64,000 bases of DNA, from positions 11,270,303-11,334,302 of the forward strand of contig NC_087075.1 of assembly GCF_026151205.1 (NCBI RefSeq), in the 5' to 3' direction. The stretch comes from Bolinopsis microptera. Lineage: Eukaryota > Ctenophora > Tentaculata > Lobata > Bolinopsidae. The notes below the pieces were generated by a model. That model made no database searches and was not told the origin of the DNA. It was given only the letters and a program-made list of their open reading frames with translations. Positions 1,656 through 51,975 of this stretch are shown piece after piece; positions within the stretch are counted from its first letter, which is position 1, and each line of letters opens with the position of its first letter. A program made the position numbers and the translations under genes.

Positions 1656-2691
1656 ATGGCTTATCTCTATTATGTTTAGCCAAAGAAACCACCATTATCC
1701 AAACTAACAATAGTAGATACAGAGTAATCACAGCTGTCTCGACTCCATTTGATCTGAGGGGTAATTACATTCGTAAAGCACTTTTACATCTTTATCGTGA
1801 ATTTTCGTGGTAACACAATAATGCCACAATTCGGTAATTTGATTTAGAACTAAAAGTAGCTAAACTAATTCAATCTGTCCATTCTTAGAGTGGCTACAGA
1901 TTACAACTTTGAGCATGAGTTTACCTCAAGTCGTGTGTAACGTTGCAAACTTTTATAAGCAATAACCTACCTATCTTCTAGCATCGATGTATCTAATCCT
2001 GCACAAGATTCCGGTTGTTCCCAACAAGTGTCAGTATCAGTCTCTAAAACCATTCTCTATCACCTAGATAAGTGTACTTATTATTGTGTGCAGTATGTAC
2101 TCAAAGATTCAACGAGGGTTACAATTCAACTATAACAAAAAACACCTTCACGACATTAAATTAGATTGGACATTATTAATCGATAATATGGTTGAAAACT
2201 GGATATACGTATTTTGACCCATAACATAACATAACATAACATAACATTATAAATAATGCCTCTCTGGGCATCTCAAAAAGAAATTCATAGAAAATGAACA
2301 CTTTACGTTTGAAACCATATAATTACAAACTTTTTTAAAAAAATTCAACTAAATACCTTTGATATTAACCTTCTTCCTCTTAGCTACCAATGGATTCTCT
2401 TTCATATAACTTACATAACTATTCCTATTAGACACAGACACATCTATCCTATCAAAGATGTCATATGAAAGTTCCCAGTGATGAAAGTTCCCAGTGACTC
2501 CCTCACTGCTCACTAGTATTTCCTATAGGAAGAATTTATTTGTCATCAGACTGCTGTGCAGAAATAAGAACAGTACTTGGAATTCTTTTCAGTAGCTCTT
2601 TTAATAGCCGTATATATATATGTAAAACACACCATTCCCTCTGAAGGAAACAAATTTTAGGAAAACAAGTTTAAATTTTGGTATTTATTAA
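1656..2691. other. Intergenic, no gene seen
   Basis: AT-rich DNA without a convincing reading frame. It holds a short tandem run of the 5-mer ATAAC (about 2220-2247) and a direct duplication of 'GAAAGTTCCCAGTGA' near 2466-2499. Confidence 0.6.
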
Positions 2692-2913
2692 GCAGTTGAG
2701 GCTTCTCAGTTCCTAAAACATCTCGCTGAAAAGATCAGCCTTAAGAAAGGCCAACGGTATTGTGATGTGATGGCATTTGTCAGACGCAGACTGCGCTTTG
2801 ATCTACTCAGAACCTGTATAATATCTATCAGGGGATACAGAGGTACCAGAACTCTTCCACCCACGGCAATACGTGATTTAGACCTTAACCTGATCAACAC
2901 TCCTAAACCCTAA
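2692..2913 (+). pseudogene. Retroelement protein C-terminal relic
   Basis: A 73-residue plus-strand frame ends at TAA 2911-2913 and has no start codon. It contains 'KHLAEKISLKKGQRYCDV' followed by 'FVRRRLRFDLLRTCIISIRG'. From memory, this motif pair (a K/R-rich 'G--Y--V---LR--L-F-LLR---+-+RG' block) is found at the C-terminus of polymerase proteins of many invertebrate retroelements; no search was run. No reverse transcriptase lies directly upstream, so it is a detached end fragment. Confidence 0.5.
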
Positions 2914-3462
2914 AAGGTCATGATGGGGGTCTAAACTGCTTTTTGTTGTGATGTGAATTTGTTATATATATTATTGCAAAGGGTTTTTATTTTTACCTCA
3001 GTTTTTAAAATTTGTACCATTTTTAAAGAATTTTTATATAGGGTCATTGCTATATTATGTGTATATTGTTAGAAATGTCAAATACTGTGTAATATAACAT
3101 GTAGGCCTTTATTAAGTAAAACAAAATTTAAATTTTATTGCCATATTACAATGAATAATAATATCATAATAAACATAGTTAAACTTAAACATCCGATAAT
3201 AAACTCATGAATATTGGATATGCTAACAAAATGTAAAATACGCTTTTTACTATATACTAGTGAACTACTCGAAAAATCGTCTCAATCATACATTTTTTCA
3301 GCACAATTAAAAATTTAAATGAAAATTCTAAAGCAGAAGTGAACGTTATGAAAAAAAATTTAAATAGAAAAATATTTCCTCAACTGACTTGTTTTCTAAA
3401 TGTTTAAATTTCATGAATAAATAGTCCATAATGTTTTGTTTCACGTTGTAGCCCTGCCGCGC

Positions 3463-19066: not shown

Positions 19067-22000
19067 TCAACGCAACTTAACACTCTTGGTAAGATTCGAC
19101 TTGATTCCACTCTTTTCGCCCTCATACGTTCCCTTGTGGTCACGGAGATCAGGTACTTGGGAGCGCCTCTTTTTCAGGGCTTTATCGTACTTTTTACGGT
19201 GTTTCACTCTGGGATTTCTCTGTTCTTTCTTCCTGTGTGGTGTTAGACCCTGGGAAAGGAGGAACATTAGTTATGGTGATTCTTGGATTTATTTGTTTGT
19301 TGATTTTAAACTTGTGTTAAGGTTTGAAAAGTAATGGTTCTTGAGACGGTGGGTCTAAGGGAAACTAGTCAGGTATTTTGTGATGCAAAAATACTAGCCT
19401 AATCTTTCTATTCACATCTAAATTTGTGAGCTGATCGTTTTTATAGAGGATAAAAATATACCTTGTTCTTCATTATTTTGAATGTGATTCCTCTCTTTTC
19501 TTCATCTTCTTCGTTCATCGTTGTTGGGTCTTCTGACAACACTTCAATACCTGTAGGGAAAATTGTCATTCAATGAAATCTTACATTGCGATCGTCTTTA
19601 AAAAAAGTTAACAAAGGTAAAAAAGACCGTTGAATTATAGATTAACTTGCCTTTTGACTTCTTCTTCTTTTTACGTTTCTTTTCTTCGGAGAGTTTCAAA
19701 GTTTTTTCGTACAGATCTTCCTCGTTGTCCTCACTAAATACGAAAATCATTTATTCATTAATCGGTTAATTAACTCATTTGCGGATGGGGGGGTACCAAT
19801 GGCATAGAATGGAGACAAATGGCATAAAATTCATCAAATGGCATAGAAATTTCATGGCATAAATGGAAATTTTGTTTGGCCAATTCTCCATTTATGCCAA
19901 TTTATGCCATGAATTTAGGTCTTCATATTTGACCTTTAGGATGACTTTAAATTCGCAAATTATTATTAGTACTTAAATAAGAGACATGTTTCATGCTTTA
20001 TAATGCTTGGAATGATCGTTAAAGATTCATATGACAAATAAATAAAATAGAAATGTATTATATCAAACATATACCAAACATTTGACTTTTCAAGAAAAGC
20101 AAATTGTGAGACGTTCAAAATGTACCCAATACAAACATTGACCGCCACACAGCGATTTTGAATGTCATCAAGGAACCTGGAACAATTCATGTGATGTATT
20201 TGTCTTCGACGAGTAGCCAAACATTAGGAGATCCGTTGATTAGGCTATACTTCTGGCAGTAGTACTTCATCGGGCATGACTAATAAGAAATAAATCTAAC
20301 CACTCCTGTTGCAAAGTCCTGCTGAGATTAGAAGACTTTAAGAGTTTCTGTACTGCCAGCTTTCAAAACTGTTGAACATCCGCATTCAGGTTGATTGTAT
20401 ATGCGAACATCAGAAGACACTCCAAACGCGTCCCCCTTGAATCTTGAAAGACGAGATTTTGTTGATAAAGTGCTTCTTCCTCCATTGAGCGTGAGTGTCT
20501 CAAAATACCGGAAGGAAAGTGTTCCATATTTATCTGTTGATATCGTTTCTCCAACATCACAATCATCAACTCCAGGTTCTACCTCATAAGCTAAGTCGTC
20601 CTCATCCTCGAGGCATCCAGCTTCATCATCTACAGCTTCCCAAGAAAGTACTTGGCCATGGACGATTGGCTTCCCACACTGTTCTTCTGGATCTGCGACT
20701 GCGGCGAACACAGGGAAATTGTTTCTTTTCCCTTCTCGAATGCAGTCCCTCGATGCCCTGTCCAGCGTTTTTGCCAACTTCCCTAGGCTTATCATACCAC
20801 CAGTCCATTTCACTCGTTCTGCTTTCTGGCCTGTAGATTTAACCTTTTTGAGGTGAACTGTAGGATGCAAAACTGTACTTCCACGACCCACGTGCATGTG
20901 CAATTGCAGATGTGTTTTCATGTAATGAAGACACATCTGCAACTGTACACATTCTTTCTCTCCATTCCATGGGCCATAGTTATCGCATCCATATTTCTTG
21001 AGCGACTAGATGAAAAAGAAACCCGAATAAATTCTAGATTATACTAGATTAACGTTATTATAGAAAACTAATAAAGGAGTGCTATGTTGCTATGCAGCAG
21101 TGAATATGGAGATATTTAAGCAATATATTATGGTCATCATCATTTTGTATAATAGGAAGCAAGTATTTCAGGTCATTTGGTGAACTATTATGTAATACTA
21201 AAATGCTAGAGTTAAGAGAAAGGATCTCAGTGTTGTCTGGTTAGACTTAGCGAATGCTTACGGGGCTGTTCCACATTTACTTATTGTGAAAGCACTCCGC
21301 TTCTATCATATCCCCGAGAAAGTTATCAACATCGTAATCAAATACTTCTCGGAAGTTTACGGAAGATTCTCCTCTAAAACAGTGACATCAGAGTGGCAGC
21401 AGTTCGAGATAGGAATATTCATGGGCTGTGTCATCTCGGTGATCTTATTTGTGCTATGCATGAACCTTTCTGACGAGTACTTGAAGATGAAGGTACCCAG
21501 GAGTGTCGAGTACATTAAGGATGGAACAGCTATACCACCCCTTAAGCTGTTTATGGATGATAGCTGCCTTACCACGGCTAAAATGGTAGATATGCAAACC
21601 CTGCTTGATGTTTATCAGGAGTTCGTTGTGTGGTCAAGGTTCAAGCTTAAGTCGTCTAAATCTAGGGCACTAGTCTACCAGAAGGGAGTGACAGTGGAGT
21701 GGGTTGTAGAGAGTTCAGAAGGTAGCCAGGCGAGGTTGCAGCTTAGCGGGGAGGTGATCCCGAATGTATCTGAGAAACCAATCAAGTTTCTAGGGAGGTG
21801 GATTCGGGCAGAAGGAAAGGACAAAGCTATAATCGAGAAAACACACGAGGATCTTATTACATACCTCAGTAGACTCGATCTTAGCTCCCTCACCGGCCTG
21901 CAGAAATGTTGGGGTATCAGTATATGGTCCTTCCAAAGATGAAGTGGCCACTTGCCATTTATGATATCCCGATCAGCACTGTTTCTCGCTGGGAGCAAAC

Positions 22001-25000
22001 AACTAACAGTTATCTCAGAAAATGGCTAGGAGTGGGACACACGCTTAGTAGCTTTTGCCTGTTTAGTCATTCATCCAGTGTTGCTCTCCCCATCGACAGC
22101 CTAACCGACACTTGGAAAGTAGAAAAGTGCCGTCTCTTGCAGTCATATCAAACATCTCAGGATGCTTTGATCAGAGCGGTGCAACCCCAGGTGCGGTCTG
22201 GGAGAGTTTGGAAGGCAGATGCTCAGCTTCACGAAGCTGAAAGAGACTTGGTGTGTGAGTCAGTGCGAGGTATGGTGCAACCTCTTAGTAGAGCGGGAAT
22301 TGGTTTCGGTGATTGGAAGAAGCCCTGGGAGAAGATGTCAGAAAAGGAGCAGCAGAGGGAGGTGTTGGATAGGGTTAAGGAGAACATCAGGAAGGAAAGA
22401 GAGGTGCTCAGGTGCAGTTGGGTACGTTGGAGATGCAGTCCAGGTGGGGTAATTGGAGAGAGCTGGTGACAAGGACTGACATGAGCTGGCACACGCTCTT
22501 CAAGTATGGGGACTCATTAATCGGTTTTCTGCTTAGTGCTGTGTATGGCACGCTTGTTACACCAGCTTTAGCATCCAAGTGAGGCGAGGATGAGGATGGG
22601 ATGTGCAAGCTGTGTGGTGACAAGTTGGGAACTGTGCCGCATATCCTGTGGCACTAAGTCAAGGGAGATACCGATGGCGCCACGATAAGGTGCTTAAACA
22701 AATAGCGGACCAAGTTAAATTCCATTGTGAGCGGAGAGTCAACAAGAGGAAGAGTTCTTGAGTCACTCGGAAAGCCATTGAGTTTGTTCCAGCAAGAGGG
22801 AGGTTTAAGGAGGTGAAGAGGTCGAAAGTCATTGAGTTTGGGATTCTGAGTGGGGCCACTGATTGGATAGTATTAGCAGACCTGGATAAGCAGCTGAAAT
22901 TCCCGTCGGATATAGCAACGACCAGATTAAGACCAGATTTGGTTCTTTTCTCGAAAGCTTCCAAGAGAGTAATCTGGTGGGAGCTTACAGTACCGTCGGA
23001 AGAGAGAATAGCTGCATCCCATGAGCTGAAGCTTGATCGGTATAGCAGTCTACAAGCGGAAATACAAGCTAAAGGGTGGTCAAGTTTCAGCTTTGCTGTT
23101 GAGGTTGGTGCTAGAGGTGTGGTTGCAGCAAGTTTGGAGTGTGCATCAAGGACGATTGGTCTGACTGGGAGAGCCCTCAAGAAGTTGGTCAGTGATTGTG
23201 GGAAGGATGCAGCCCATTGTTCAAGATGGATTTATCTGCTGTCTAGGAAAAAAGAGTGGGAGATGAGAGCTGTTTGAGCTTTATGACTTCACCTAACAGC
23301 CAGAGGTGCCATAAGCTAACTCGTCGTAAATCGCGAGCTCTAGCAGGTATCCTCGGGTGATTGTCAGATAAGATGGTGGTCCAAGAGAGACTGCTGGGGC
23401 ACCTGACAGAAAACCGTATCGCAATGAAAGCCCCGAAACGGTGTCAGGTTTGTGACTGAAGATTCTGATCAAGCTCAGGGTTGAGTCTACACAGTGTCGC
23501 CACTTGCCGATGCCAGTTGATGCGAGAAGACACTGATGTAAGTGGGAAGTTATGTCTAAGAAACAGCGTGTGGTTCGGGTGCCGGTTGAACGCATGTAAA
23601 AGGGAGGGTATATCCGTATTTCGCTGCTAGTGATGCAGTCCTTGGCCCGGTAGCTAAGGCTTCCCCGTTTCTCGCTCATTTGTGCTCCGATGGGCTTGTG
23701 ACCTCTGCGGGGGTCAAGTGCAGGATGAGGGACATGGCCGACCAGGAGAAGGTTGTTTTTGGGAGATAGAGTAGGGTTGGTTTGGTGTTGTGCCTTCGCA
23801 GTTTAACTGTATCTTTACCCCTACAGGTTCATCGAGATATCAATGAATATTATTTTTAAGAGGCTACCCATTCGAAACATGTTTACAGATCATTATCAAT
23901 CTTATGAAAATGTTTAAATTTCAAAACCTTCAACATGAACACGGTCCCGACACGATACATCTGTTATACACATCATTAACAAATAATATTTTAATCGAGT
24001 TGGTAATGTTACAGTTTTCCACTGTTAATTTGGATATCCGATTGACTGGGAGCATTCAGTCGACTGTCCTCTCTGTTATACGGTGTGTAGCGTGTACTAT
24101 GCCATACTGCCCGGTCACTTGTCCACTATCAACCAAATTCTCATATCATATTGATATACATTGAACGTCATTATAATCAGTAATGCCCATTGCTAGGGAT
24201 ATTTTGAGGAATTTAATGGGTGAAAATAGATGTTGTACTAGTACAATAAATAGAGATAAAGGTGGACAGTACTAGTGGGGTGCAGACAATTCGTTATTAA
24301 ATTCTCAGTCTAAAGTTTTAAAATTTCATATTTCGAATGGCATAGAATGGAGACAAATGGCATAAAATTCATCAAATGGCATAGAAATTTCATGGCATAA
24401 ATGGAAATTTTGTTTGGCCAATTCTCCATTATGCCATTTATGCCATTGGTACCCCCCCTTGCGGATCGATGAATTAGTTGAACAATCAAATAAATAATAA
24501 ATTAATAAATTACAAAAATCGGTAGACAAGATAATATGTACACCAAGATAATATCTACACTTCCTATTAACCTTTTGGTGTTGTCTGAAGATATTTTCCT
24601 CTTCCTCTGTTTATCCTCCTCCTCATCACTCTGCTTCTCATTTAACAGGTGTTCTATTTCTTTCTCCAGGGTAAAATCTAGGTAGTAAAGTTATTATTAT
24701 GTTGCATTTGGGAAACACACAACTACACAATATAAGGTTTAGGTTATAATTAAACTTGGTTATAGTTTATGAGTGGAGACCCGCTATAATTATTAAAACG
24801 AACTTTCTAGCACAACTATTTCTTTACCTCACTGAATAACAGTGAGCGGACAAATGTTAATTAGTCGTAATTTAATCGCCGTTAATTATTGAATATAATA
24901 TATCATTAATCATTATCATCGCTCATTACACAATATATAAACAAATGGGATTAGAATTTGTTACCTGTTTTAGCACAAGTTTTGAACATTTTCCTGAGGT

Positions 25001-28000
25001 CCACAATTCGTTGAATAACTGGATGATTCTTGACATCAGTTTTGTCTGAAGACTGCAACATGAGGTAGAACCTGGAAAGATAACAGATAACAGATAACAG
25101 ATGGATAAGATAACAGCTGGCGTAACTTTGTGTTCAGAGAAAGGTTTCACGTACATTACTTGTCCAATGTCTATGAATTTGGATGGAACCACTTTTATCA
25201 ATAAATATTTATCACCACTTTCCATCAGCCAGTTAAAATTATCGACTGAGAAAATATGTGAAATCACAAAAAACTTTAAACTTTAAACTTTAAAAGTACA
25301 CAAATATCTCAAACCCAATATTAAGACAGTAGAGAAGGTTTAGTTTGTATTTAGCCTCAATGTAGTCGTGTCCTGTGTGTGAAAATGTGCCTTGCTGTCT
25401 GCCTGGAAAATGAAATGTTAAACTAACAACTAACATATTATAAACTTTAATATGAAAAACAATATTCCTTAAAGACATACGGAATTGAAACAATGCACTT
25501 CCTATACGTTATCCATCAATTAATAATTGAAGGATAACGTATAGGAAGTGCATTTTTTATTCGAATAATTGACAATTATTCGAATAAAAAATGTGAATAT
25601 TAGCGAAATGTCATGGTATAATACAAACCTAACTGAAGTAAGGGATAAAGGGGCTCTACAAACCTAACTGAAGTAAGGGATAAAGGGGCTGTCTAGCCTC
25701 ACAAACCTAACTGAAGTAAGGGATAAAGGGGCTCTACAAACCTAACTGAAGTAAGGGATAAAGGGGCTCTCTAGCCTCACAAACCTAACTGAAGTAAGGG
25801 ATAAAGGGGCTCCCTTTAATACAAACATAACTGAAGTAAGGGATAAAGGGGCTGTCTAGCCTCACAAACCTAACTGAAGTAAGGGATAAAGGGGCTGTCT
25901 AGCCTCACAAACCTAACTGAAGTAAGGGATAAAGGGGCTCTACAAACCTAACTGAAGTAAGGGATAAAGGGGCTCTCTAGCCTCACAAACCTAACTGAAG
26001 TAGGGGATAAATGGGCTCTCTAGCCTCGCTACAAACCTAACTGAAGTAAGGGATAAAGGGGCTCTCTAGCCTCGCTACAAACCTAACTGAAGTAAGGGAT
26101 AAAGGGGCTCTCTAGCCTCGCTACAAACCTAACTGAAGTAAGGGATAAAGGGGCTGTCTAGCCTCACAAACCTAACTGAAGTAAGGGATAAAGGGGCTCT
26201 CTATAATACAAACCTAACTGAAGTAAGGGATAAAGGGGCTCTACAAACCTAACTGAAGTAAGGGATAAAGGGGCTCTCTAGCCTCACAAACCTAACTGAA
26301 GTAAGGGATAAAGGGGCACTCTAGCCTCGCTACAAACCTAACTGAAGTAAGGGATAAAGGGGCTCTCTATAATACAAACCTAACTGAAGTAAGGGATAAA
26401 GGGGCTCTACAAACCTAACTGAAGTAAGGGATAAAGGGGCTCTCTAGCCTCACAAACCTAACTGAAGTAAGGGATAAAGGGGCACTCTAGCCTCGCTACA
26501 AACCTAACTGAAGTAAGGGATAAAGGGGCTCTCTAGCCTCGCTACAAACCTAACTGAAGTAAGGGATAAAGGGGCTCTCTAGCCTCGCTACAAACCTAAC
26601 TGAAGTAAGGGATAAAGGGGCTGTCTAGCCTCACAAACCTAACTGAAGTAAGGGATAAAGGGGCTCTCTATAATACAAACCTAACTGAAGTAAGGGATAA
26701 AGGGGCTCTACAAACCTAACTGAAGTAAGGGATAAAGGGGCTCTCTATAATACAAACCTAACTGAAGTAAGGGATAAAGGGGCTCTCTAGCCTCGCTACA
26801 AACCTAACTGAAGTAAGGGATAAAGGGGCTCTCTAGCCTCGCTCAACTTCTCTCTAAACTCCTCCAACATTTCTGGTAGTTCCGGACAGTTCTGATTGGC
26901 AATTAGATGATTAGTGATATCTTGGTTATTATTGAATGGGGGAACATGTCGTAGTAAAGATATTAAAAACAAAATTATGCTTATTTATTTTTATTTAGCC
27001 TTGGTCATATAGGTTACATGAACCTGAATGTTAATAAAATCAGAAAAATTAGAAAGATTATCAAAGTAACCTGGTGTAGAAAGATAAGTTTGTCATCTTT
27101 AGACATATTTTCAAAGTCTGTTCTGACAATAGTTTTCTTTTCGGTTGTCTCTTTGGAGTCTGATATAAATCTGAAAATTGTGTAACAATATTAAGAAAAG
27201 CGTTTTTGATTTAAACGATCACGTGAAGCACCATTCTTTCGTAAGATCAAAATATACGACTTCTAAATTCTGAAATTTGAGCTCTAACTTAGATGGACAT
27301 GGTCAGTATTAGGACAATATTTAGAGCAACTATATTATACAAACAAGATCCCATACCTCTGTGAATCAAAGTGGTCGTCAGTTAGATGGCTCATTAATCT
27401 CTTCTGTAAAACCATCGCCTCCCTCTCTTCCTCCTCCTCCAGCTAGAATACAGATTATTTTTAAATCTAGAGGCACAGAGATAATCTACAGGTCTGGAGA
27501 TGAAACCATCATAATTGCTATTAATTTTATGGGTACTATAATGTTTCAATTAGTTAGTGGCTCAATGAACGTAATACCACACAAAGAAGAACGAGAAAAA
27601 GGCACACGGAGTCTAAGGAAGAAATCTAAGGAATGTAACATACCTCTTCCTCTGCAGCACTGGACAAGTCTGACTCCTCTTCCTCCTCATTGTAGTAGGT
27701 AGATCTCTTCTTTCCCCACGCCTGGTCCTTCTCTCTGCAGGGATTATCAGTAAGAAATAAAACTAATTAAGTTAATCAAGATCACATAATTTTATTTTTG
27801 CTTCATTAACTTATTGTTTCATTAACTAACTTATTCACTTATTGCTTCACTACTGCATTGTTGTCATACGTTGTTACCTTGTGGGGATCAAAAGCATGCC
27901 GATTTGAACTCTACAAACTCTTGATTAAAAGAGATTTCACTATTTACACCTCAAATTTATAAGAATCACGTGATCTAATACCTGAGTTCGTCTTCTATCT

Positions 28001-31000
28001 CCTCAAAACCTCGCTCCCTCATCTCCTCTCCCGACTCTTCACTCTCATCTGTAATGTTAATACTAAATGGTAGAAGTTTTAACTCGTAAATTAGAGAAAT
28101 CTGTTATGAATAAAATTAACAATACACTGTGCCTAAGATAACAAAGTCATACCCTCTAGACAAGTCACAACAACGTAAAGATAACCTAAACTGGTGTAAT
28201 ACTAGAAGAGCCGTTGTATATCACTCACTTTGAACCTTTAACAAGTCCACACGGATAGGTTAGCTTTCTTCAGACATGAAAACAATAAAAAAGCTCAATC
28301 TGATTTAAATAGCACACTTTCAGTCTAAATTAATTACGTAATTAAGTAATTAGTTAATTAGTCACGTGACTTACCTTCCTCGTCAGAATCAGGTAGTTGT
28401 AACAGGTCTTCTGTTTCAAGGTCCTCGTCACCTTCACTCTCACTGTCACCGTCAAACCTGGACAATGAGATCGTTAAGTTATCAGTTGTTAGTCATTACT
28501 AATTAGTCATTAATCTATTAGACAGTCATGGTGAGATTTGATTTCAAAAATTTATCATTATGCCAGTTACTCCTGTCAGTTTGCTACAGATGAAAGGTAC
28601 CGGTAATTAGAAGTAATCAAGTCTTCATCGCAATCTAAGATATAATTTTACGACATCCTAAGTGATCCCCCACTATCATCAATAACTTTCCCGATTACTT
28701 TTAATTCTACTGCAAGGGTCTCCGTTACGACAATATTATTTTTACCACTCCAGTATTGTCACTAAAACATACTACCACACACACTACATATCATAAACAT
28801 CGCTTAAACATCATCATCCGCTGCAATATATCACGGTTTCTACACCATAATACTCTGACCCATGAAATATAAGTAAACTGGTAAAGGTATCCAAAATAGC
28901 AGGTGTTAATATAACAACCTCTTTTTGTTTACTACACTGAAATAATAATACACTGTAAAATATAACTTTAATGGCAGGTGTCAACTGACTTTGTTTCTGT
29001 TTAGTTCTTCTTTTAAAATCGCACATCCTCATAACAATTTTAGCCATCTGCGCAGCAATGATGGATCGTTCAAATTTCAACCATTTTAGACTCCACTCGA
29101 CTCCCCCATCCGTAAGCCAACCACTTTACACATAGCCAATGTTAATTAATCAGACGTCTCAAACTTCCTCCCCCTCTTTACACCTTGGTAATACTGTGGA
29201 TGACCCAAGTAAGAACAATATGAATACAGTTAAATGGAATAATATGTAACATGATACAGTTCAGAGGACTCCTTTACCATTAAATTCAAATAATATCCAC
29301 CATGTACTAGTATGGCGGGAAGCCCTGTTGTACAGTATAAATAACACCATGTATCGTTATAATAATACACATTTCTCTTCGGGAGGTAGCAAGAAAGAAT
29401 GCAATAAATAACCAATAACCATGTACTTTGTATCAAATCATTGAGACCCAGTGCCTCACGGCTCACCCCTCACTATACAATATGGATATTTGTGGAGCAT
29501 TAGATAATACATTTACAGCACCTCCGGTAACAGCTGAGATTCCAAAGAAGTCTCAGTTCACCTAGATGTATCCTCAAGAAACAGTACTGTACTAATATTA
29601 CTAATATTACTAAACATTGCATCACTGTCCTAATATTACTAATATATTACTAAACAGTAAACGTTGCATTACTGTCTTAATATTACTGTCCTAATATTGG
29701 AGTACAACATTCATTGCAGCTAATCCTCTCCATTCCACGACGAAAGAGATGTAAGTGAGAAACATAAAACATTTGGGGAGCTTCACTTGACCTTACAGCT
29801 ATACTAATTACTATACTAATACAGTCTGACTCTTCTGTATTGAAGTGCTTTCCACTAAGGTAAATTCTCAACGACATTCCTCCAGAACCTAGCCAGTGGC
29901 CAATTCAGCTACAGTGCGACAACAGCATAACTGAGAATCGTCTCCATTCCACGACGAAAGAGATGTAACTCAGTGAGCACCACTTTTACAAAAGTTAACG
30001 CCGAATTTCTCACACCTTTCTAAGCAAGCATTTTGCACAACTTCGCTAATGTAATCAAGAAGATCTACTGAACTGAGAGAGAAGACGCCCTACCTCCATA
30101 TAAGGGCATCACGTGATGTGACGCCCTACCTCCTTACAACTTTATAAGGGCATCACGTGATGTACCTCCCCAGATTGTATTACATGGAACACACTAGAGC
30201 AGGGAACCTGGCGAGAGTCTACCACGGAATGGAACACCAATCAACTATAATATACAACTCATACGTATATAATGCTTATGTACGAGTGGACATTTTAAAG
30301 GTGAAATCTACACTAATTGGAACCGAAGAGAAGTATTTAACGCTTCCTTGTCATTAGAGTCAGTACTTTAATGTTTTATACATTAATTGTACTATTTTGC
30401 CACTTTATAGCATTGATCTTGGAACCTAATGTTGATTGTTTGGTTGTAACTCCATGGCTACGTTCAGTTGTCATGGTCTACAATATATGGAGACAACGTG
30501 TGATAGCTCGAAAAGCTTCATCATACTTCACATACTTCACATACTTCACATACAACGCTCATTAACGGTGTATTCTGTTATTTGATTCTGTTCTACGTAT
30601 ATAATCTACTACTTTACACGGTAGTCGGAAGAGAAATAAGATGACATTACTGTATGAATCCCACTGTTGAGATAACCAAAAACACAAACCCTGCGAGCCA
30701 AATTAAACGAACTAGTGTTCCAGTTGCTAGAACGCCCTGAACAGAAATTTGGCCCTCTCTACATTGCGTTGCATGCGATGACCGTCTCCTGACACAGCTA
30801 AAGACATTACCCCAGATAATGTAGGGCAATTCAATTATCCCTTATTAGGAAGTAAAGGTGATTATGGTAGCCTATCAATTAGTAATTTATTAGAAGGACA
30901 ATTAATCCAATCAGCTGTGTCCTACGAAGATTAGATTATCCAGGTACTTTGTATTTCATGTAGACACTGTAAAGCGTTATATATTATGTAGTGTAATGCA

Positions 31001-50300: not shown

Positions 50301-51231
50301 AGAGCAGGGATCACTTTGAGGTTGGTCCCGTGGCAGGGGAACCCGTTGAGCTTCCGGCAGGCCACTGTGACGTCACGTTCACATTGGTACTCACACAACC
50401 AGTATTGCATGTGTTGACCTGAAACATTTGGTTACTTATTTTAGGTTACTTACGTTTGGTTACTAACATTTGGTTACTAACGTTTGGTAAATATTCATGT
50501 CTAGTCAGCTAAAATCAGTTTAGTGTAACATAGACCATTTCACGGTTGAAAACTGTCAACCAGCAAAGAAACTGGTCATGAAAGAAAAGTTGAACAATTG
50601 CAATTGTACTTAGTTAAACACGACTATCGTGGTGTTAAAACCAACAAAGAAATAATCAAAAGTTATAAAATAAATCTAAATTCCCTAATTTGACTGACCA
50701 GTCTGATGATTGTAATTGAGAGTAATTACCGGACCGGCCATGCTCATAACTCCTCTCAGACTCTCCTGATGAACATTACTCGGCAGGTGGCAAACCTTCA
50801 CAGACCTGTTAAAAGTGTGTTAAAAGCGTGTTAAAAGCGTGGGATTCAAATGTGTCGGATGAGATAATTTTTATAATATAAAAATGTATTTTTGGGCTGC
50901 CTACTATCTACACCACTTAGTTTAAATTATAGAATAGAGTGAATTTGGCCAGCAATGGAAAAATACAGCTCTAACTTTTAATCGATACAGATTCGAAAAT
51001 ATTTCAAGATTAATAATTTAAACAGATTTACCGTTTCAGATGATCCAAAAGGACGGAGAAAGAAGACTCGGAAAAGAGAGGAGATAGCGGGGTAACAGGG
51101 TCTTCTCCCCCCGTAAGTTGTATCTCATCTGTATCATGTGTGTACAAGGAGGTGGAGCAACTGTTACAGGTTAGGGGCTCTAGTTTTACCTGAAATAAGG
51201 AACCGTTACATGTTAGGGGCTGTAGTTTTAC
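44321..51231 (-). CDS. Giant C2H2 zinc-finger protein with N-terminal RRM-like domain
   Basis: A 6.1-kb last exon (50418-44321) encodes about 2,030 residues. Two upstream exons join it in frame: 51189-51032 (or from 51231 with an alternative acceptor) and 50805-50699 (donor ACTG|GTCAGT). The first upstream exon(s) and start codon are not identified; without them the first ATG would be 50410. Across the 50699/50418 junction the protein reads as an RRM: 'SVKVCHLPSNVHQESLRGVM', then 'GPVITLNYNHQTG', then 'QHMQYWLCEYQCERDVTVAC', 'RKLNGFPCHGTNLKVI'. About 28 irregular C2H2 or degenerate fingers follow, spread over about 1,500 residues without TGEKP linkers. There is an acidic E-run (about 47850-47895) and a disordered C-terminus with polyasparagine (about 44789-44818). 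A final finger is 'HKCTYCQRIFKNYVNVYNHL'. Presumably a nuclear nucleic-acid-binding protein; no orthologue is named. Confidence 0.75.
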
Positions 51232-51975
51232 CTGAAATAATACAGGGTGGCCCATGTTAGTCTACCCATCCTTATCTCTTAAAATTGTTACAGGTCGCTG
51301 AGATCTTGCTAATTATTTTAAAAACAAAAAGTGGCATAACTTATGTTCTGATAAATATTTTTTCTTCTAAATTTCACAGAATGTTAATAACAAGTAGATG
51401 AACCTTTGTGGCAAGTTTTGTGTGATTGAGAGCTTCACTGAGCTTATTTGACCAATTAAGCCCCTGAGCGAGCTAGCTTGAATTTCTCACCCAGAACTGT
51501 TTACATTGGTTAATAGAAACCACCAAAAAAAATCCTGGGTAAAAAAATTAAAAAACCACCGATTTATTTATGTTTTACCAATTCTATTCACCACGATGCA
51601 TCGCACATTCCATTCTCTACACTGCTGTACAGTGTACATCCTATATTTTAACTGCAGATAAGGACTATCACAGATGATCCTTCCTGCTTGTTTATATCGT
51701 TCTGCTCACTTGCCTTAACAAATTTAAAATTATAGCTGGATGATTAGCCTACAATTTTATCGATTTTACAAACGGTGGTTTGAAATAGGTTTACAGCAGG
51801 TCAGCCGATTCCCATGAGATGAGTAAATAAACTTGAAAAGAAAACAAACGATAACGTAGATTTCCGGTCGATAATCCATAATCTTATGAATTCTCATGGG
51901 AATTTTACGATAGCAGGGATAGATTTCCCCCTTAAAAGTCGCAACAATTTATTAACCATTAACGATCATCTCATC

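Follow-up and report, generated by a model that had tools for sequence, protein, structure and literature searches.

The genome of the ctenophore Bolinopsis microptera carries, directly behind a coding exon of the UTP3/SAS10 gene, a tandem array in which the end of that exon and its own splice donor are repeated. The exon end and 28 intronic copies together give 29 occurrences of a common core, in good agreement with the roughly 29-fold amplification that had been claimed from the sequence alone. In our view the array is probably a young and near-neutral minisatellite: it would be spliced at its first donor with some leakage into poison isoforms, and would be tolerated without selection. All positions below refer to the window, that is, the whole stretch of 64,000 nucleotides that was analysed, unless another contig is named.

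The UTP3/SAS10 gene was modelled on the minus strand over 19067..28457 by means of its open frame, UTP3 homology and Pfam. The model begins behind a first upstream exon that it does not include, and the name exon 7 follows the numbering of the sequence-only reading. Nine exons, running from 28457 to 24572, keep a single frame open throughout when spliced, and three C-terminal exons (19733-19067) are terminated by a stop codon. The spliced model matches UTP3 (Something about silencing protein 10) of PDB entry 7mq8, which we take to be the human protein, with an E value of 7.3e-31. Additionally, Pfam Sas10_Utp3 is recognized on its N-terminal part (E 3e-14) and the Sas10 C-terminal domain on its C-terminal part (E 1.6e-31). 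Exon 7 (26804..26891, minus strand) is 88 nt long, is entered in phase 0 and left in phase 1, and is followed by an intron with a total length of 1401 nt. The next exon, exon 8 (25315..25402, minus strand), was placed by the spliced model and the UTP3 alignment and also measures 88 nt, so its skipping would shift the frame. The alignment to 7mq8 crosses the 26804/25402 junction without a gap and continues into exon 8, which, together with the open frame, places the donor after 26804 with about the certainty that sequence by itself can give; the exon end at 26804 proposed earlier is thereby upheld.

Two further observations concern this gene and its family. An exon-by-exon search of the assembly with Pfam Sas10_Utp3 returned a sole match, at C11:6846239-6846391, which is probably another member of the family, and no match at the UTP3 locus itself, whose exons divide the domain. 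Moreover, the last large UTP3 intron (window 21000-24300) contains long open frames on both strands, which look like a candidate decayed mobile element.

The array directly adjoins the 3' end of the coding exon. Its first copy, the source, consists of the final 40 nt of exon 7 and the initial 6 nt of the intron (26798..26843, minus strand), and these 46 nt (26843-26798) show full identity to the next 46 nt (26797-26752). The core shared by all copies, CCCCTTTATCCCTTACTTCAGTTAGGTTTGT, is 31 nt long and occurs 29 times on the minus strand, from 26828 to 25623, the exon's own end included; 27 of these cores are exact, one has one mismatch and one has two. As delimited by core search and Tandem Repeats Finder, the 28 intronic copies occupy 25623..26797 (minus strand), that is, 1175 nt of the 1401-nt intron, and are connected by four types of linker. 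Type A, AGCGAGGCTAGAGAG, is the exon's own sequence and is found in eight copies, two of which have one change. Type B, ATTATAGAGAG, is present in five copies, one of them differing at two letters, while nine copies have type C, GAGGCTAGA[C/G]AG, and six have type D, AGAG. Copies are consequently spaced at 46, 43, 42 or 35 nt. The sequence-only reading had described the unit as 40 nt of exon plus 6 nt of intron; this is exact for the first 46-nt repeat, but only eight intronic copies out of 28 retain the full unit, six of them exactly and two with a single change, the other 20 being shortened to 42 nt (5), 43 nt (9) or 35 nt (6). The donor letters GTTTGT, on the other hand, are kept in 28/28 intronic copies, with T instead of G at position -1 in one of them. 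Tandem Repeats Finder also revealed a higher-order period of 467 bp over the array, indicating that units were multiplied together as blocks.

Past the last copy, the original intron resumes in an array-free remainder (25403..25622, minus strand) that opens with ATTATACC, a flank retained in the type-B units. Two adjoining hairpin-type inverted repeats, one with 35-nt arms (94%) and one with 21-nt arms (100%), were detected by an inverted-repeat search at 25488..25593, some 30 nt behind the array, and no second copy of them was found in the assembly. Hairpins were considered as drivers of expansion and rejected as such: 140 kb of random sequence contain 10 of them, and among 12 loci with other arrays, five have any (7 hairpins in all) and seven have none.

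Several features of the sequence show that the array is derived from the exon, as had been claimed before: the exon end is homologous to UTP3, the flanks of the junction reappear in the linkers, and the core is confined to this locus. When up to 3 mismatches were allowed, the core gave 29 matches in the 264.7-Mb assembly outside its gaps and withheld stretches, all within the UTP3 array, and the reversed core, used as a control under the same threshold, gave 0 matches. Type A holds exon letters that are absent from type B, and type B holds the intron letters ATTATA that are absent from type A. Neither type can thus be obtained from the other by deletion alone, so the source spanned the junction; judged by these flanks, it comprised about 40 nt of exon and about 12 nt of intron. 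With 3 substitutions in 28 x 31 (868) core letters, the array is either young or well homogenised. The lack of indels in the core is uninformative on age, as the core is by definition the part common to the copies.

Identity between the exon end and the array copies does not by itself give a direction, and a pre-existing repeat array might have supplied the end of the exon. This reverse origin, however, has to account for an exon end that codes EAREPLYPLLQL and aligns gaplessly to EVKDELEPLLEL of 7mq8 UTP3, as well as for a core that was not found elsewhere in the assembly, and we consider it scarcely credible. Tandem arrays are, moreover, frequently collapsed or expanded in assemblies, and either the array or its copy number might be a product of mis-assembly. 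Against this, the linker types and their order vary among the copies in a structured way and the same sort of array is present at unrelated loci (see below), making an artefact very unlikely.

Following derivation from the exon, the array would have originated as a minisatellite through a tandem duplication across the exon 7/intron junction of UTP3 that placed a copy downstream of the original. Trimming of the duplicated stretch would have produced the four junction types, and blocks comprising several units would then have been multiplied. As all added copies lie behind the original donor, the gene works as long as the first donor is used. This exon-proximal 5' splice site, GTTTGT (TAG/GTTTGT, with the slash marking the junction; 26798..26803, minus strand), has 6 of 9 matches to CAGGTAAGT. 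The nine modelled UTP3 donors range from 4 to 8 of 9 matches, so the amplified donor is ordinary for UTP3. Splicing at the first donor yields a continuous frame that matches UTP3. Via any later donor, an in-frame TAG (26796..26798, minus strand) would be reached at once, since the sequence at 26804-26796 reads G/GT TTG TAG, in accordance with the stop right after the first junction that had been noted earlier. In the proposed mechanism, the spliceosome would use the first donor and the 28 near-identical donors behind it would be removed with the intron. Now and then donor 2 or 3 would be chosen, and the transcript would then include a unit with its immediate TAG, giving rise to some nonsense RNA. 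First-donor use is what we infer from the reading frame, and low leakage and near-neutrality are proposed along with it. It should be added that of two equal donors the intron-proximal one is often favoured, which is opposite to the first-donor reading. An RNA structure that hides the donors found no support over the first 311 nt from the exon into the array: the fold had a z-score of +1.5, and 93 of 100 shuffles matched or exceeded its stability.

Arrays of this sort are present elsewhere in the genome. A genome-wide search for three CAGGTAAGT words at 15-45 nt spacing gave 154 + 296 matches. As only the exact word was searched for and the G-type arrays were taken from the best 100 of 262 matches, the resulting number is a lower bound: at least 14 further separate arrays contain CAGGTAAGT. 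Six of these start at apparent coding-exon ends and two adjoin apparent acceptors. The arrays other than that of UTP3 have units of their own. Homology supports three of the six donor-anchored arrays, namely those in an importin-7 gene (L002), a homeobox gene (L008) and a WD40 gene (L003). The importin-7 gene, its pieces joined by eye, matches importin 7 of 6n88 with an E value of 3.5e-23, and the alignment spans the junction with a one-residue gap. In the homeobox gene (G000:C10:4504500-4509500, bases 2318-3070), a 35-nt unit is repeated 21.5 times. This repeat, made up of exon end and donor, is located inside the homeodomain coding sequence, and the exon behind the array completes the homeodomain (joined exons, E 4.4e-23). 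For L003, joined pieces scored 35.7 bits for WD40 against a cut-off of 27, and the exon alone gave E values of 1.2e-5 and 0.0015; the best name, MABP1/WDR62 (E 5.8e-11), scored far below its own cut-off.

Of the remaining donor-anchored arrays, L001 starts at an apparent coding exon with an open frame of about 170 codons, on which Pfam gave no match at E 0.01. L007, with about 57 units, and L009 (G000:C10:17035500-17040500, oriented bases 1673-2977, minus strand) are less sure, both being recognized by an open frame and splice signals only. Pfam gave no match on the short exons of L007 and L009, nor on the upstream frame of L007. At L009 both ends of the apparent exon are repeated: 3 copies of a 33-nt unit cover the acceptor, and about 42 copies of a 27-nt unit cover the donor. 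Those 27-nt units that were displayed are in frame and contain no stop, and some units are longer. Further on in this locus a TBC domain is found (E 6.8e-13, joined pieces). In 5 of the 6 donor-anchored loci, use of a later donor would be followed by a stop after no more than about a dozen codons, as is usual for intron sequence.

An apparent acceptor is adjoined by a 37-nt repeat of 10 copies in L005 (G000:C8:7266300-7271500, bases 2492-2861), the unit of which resembles a donor, a pyrimidine tract and an acceptor in series, and a TAF2 domain is encoded in a further exon of this locus (E 4.6e-37). L024 likewise has its array at an apparent acceptor. Pfam gave no match on the exons directly behind the L005 and L024 arrays. 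No exon was seen at the arrays L004, L006, L025, L027 and L028. In L026/L029 (G000:C12:14341400-14348900, minus strand), an array of 41-nt units, many of which contain CAGGTAAGT, extends over more than 7 kb, and the stretch retrieved does not reach its exon-side end, if any. Within the window itself, a 42-nt duplication on the minus strand (51159-51240) covers an apparent acceptor together with the start of the exon (TTATTTCAG/GTAAAACT..., present twice). It is in frame and open, its two acceptors would give products 14 residues apart, and it resembles the beginnings of a junction array.

The frequency of arrays at donor words was compared with the background in two ways. By instances, 450 of 2,463 CAGGTAAGT words (18.3%) satisfied the triple criterion, although a few long arrays dominate this number, compared with 4,818 of 139,888 random words (3.4%) and 50 of 4,656 words of the same composition (1.1%), with a background sample of 140 kb of random sequence from five contigs. 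Counted as separate arrays, the figures are 657 of 130,991 random word clusters (0.50%) versus at least 14 of roughly 2,000 CAGGTAAGT clusters, the latter total being an estimate. A control with the reversed pattern gave 0 triple matches but is unfair, as real donors are common words (CAGGTAAGT occurs 2,463 times, its reverse 1,212 times). There is thus no clear enrichment: as separate arrays, those at donor words occur at about the background rate. This is a minisatellite-rich genome, in which some arrays happen to fall on junctions.

Variation within donors was compared with that at other positions in eight arrays found by an intact CAGGTAAGT (L001, L002, L003, L007, L008, L009, L025 and L026, with L025 and L026 lacking an established donor anchor). 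Consensus-like units only were scored, which left just 3 units for L002. Distinct variant states numbered 7 per 72 donor columns versus 26 per 201 other columns. Raw substitutions amounted to 26/1,962 (1.3%) in donor letters and 165/5,605 (2.9%) in other letters, the donor rate being lower in five arrays, equal in one and higher in two. The lower raw rate points towards constraint. Arrays found via an intact CAGGTAAGT are, however, biased towards a low donor substitution rate, and this ascertainment could produce the same difference. Overall, a special role for the UTP3 array finds no clear support in the donor-variant, RNA-fold and array-frequency tests.

By its position at an exon end and the donor in each unit, the UTP3 array can be assigned to the splice-donor minisatellites of the kind described for human IFI6 and ABCA7. 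The VNTR in intron 18 of ABCA7 has 25-bp units with the donor GT as their first two letters; when the donor of the next unit is used, one unit stays in the transcript and the frame is shifted (PMC5954066). Transcripts that retain one unit make up 2 +/- 1%, independent of array length, whereas the next exon is skipped more often the longer the array, at 12-45% depending on the tissue (PMC5954066). In 90% of BA10 brain cases the alternative transcripts, taken together, outweigh the canonical one, and nonsense isoforms go up when decay is blocked (PMC5954066). As reported there, ABCA7 shows that a donor-repeat array can matter and is not harmless despite rare unit retention. Both genes have a tandem array directly behind an exon with units bearing the true splice donor. 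The ABCA7 array as described starts with the intron, whereas full UTP3 units carry 40 nt of coding exon, and length variation and RNA were measured for ABCA7 while the UTP3 array is known here from the sequence of one assembly. In the human IFI6 (6-16) minisatellite, two downstream units serve as donors and three mRNA species result (PMC4526556, citing Turri et al. 1995). Like UTP3, IFI6 as described has several splice donors within one minisatellite, but its alternative donors make isoforms whereas the later UTP3 donors each meet a stop.

Intron gain by tandem duplication has been described (PMC4974935). In the AGGT model, such duplication creates extra splice sites. Additional splice sites have likewise appeared in UTP3 but, compared with that description, the copies enlarge an existing intron and no new intron is seen. 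Introners, which are dispersed intron-forming elements, also consist of repeated sequence carrying splice signals. They place the same element at many loci, whereas the UTP3 core is confined to one. Neither the UTP3 case nor a genome-wide class of such arrays was named in the titles and abstract beginnings returned by searches of open-licence papers.

Two other roles in splicing have to be weighed against a tolerated minisatellite. The array might act as a dosage device, in which near-identical donors compete for U1 and a share of transcripts, varying with copy number, is diverted either to a later donor, with stop and decay, or to skipping of the 88-nt next exon. The TAG after every later donor, the frame shift on exon skipping, and the conservation of GT in 28/28 and of G at -1 in 27/28 intronic copies would all fit such a device, as would the lower raw substitution rate of donor letters in the eight other arrays. 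However, donors of a young array persist without selection, the lower rate is what ascertainment by an intact donor word would be expected to give, and donor and other columns do not differ clearly in their distinct variant states. The comparison with ABCA7 cuts both ways, since in the published account exon skipping depends on the length of the donor repeat but unit retention is rare and does not (PMC5954066). Taken together, we regard a dosage function as rather unlikely. Alternatively, stepwise splicing at each pyrimidine-rich TTAG/GTTTGT joint could make the array a recursive-splicing or splice-timing device, and an acceptor-like CCCCTTTATCCCTTACTTCAG indeed precedes the donor in the copies. 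The resemblance of the unit to a recursive-splicing site, suggested by the sequence-only reading, nevertheless finds poor support. By eye, an additional CAG is located 4 nt before AG/GT and precludes a clean zero-length exon, and the only branch-site-like CTTAC lies about 6 nt from this CAG, with none at a usable distance. By general criteria, ordinary introns need more length than a pitch of 35-46 nt provides, and the host intron has just 1401 nt while known recursive sites are located in very long introns. Such a device is accordingly most improbable.

It is conceivable, though improbable on the present data, that this genome habitually makes its own splice decoys, of which UTP3, importin-7, the homeobox gene, the WD40 gene and the acceptor array of the TAF2 locus would be examples, and that array length tunes output via nonsense isoforms or exon skipping. 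If that were true, these loci would amount to saturation experiments set up by nature: the donor next to the exon would have to win against tens of near-identical competitors (28 in UTP3; L007 has about 57 units). Our results also suggest that a minisatellite-rich genome can produce donor-repeat arrays like the disease-linked one of human ABCA7 time and again, with a frequency of about background, and such an origin is a useful null model. Work on how a 5' splice site is chosen among identical copies usually relies on artificial constructs containing two or three of them. UTP3 offers 29 natural donors, with comparable arrays at other apparent exon ends, and as the copies are near-identical in sequence, it is mainly their position that differs. 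Recurrence within one genome and the prospect of so clean a test of splice-site choice both raise the interest of the UTP3 array.
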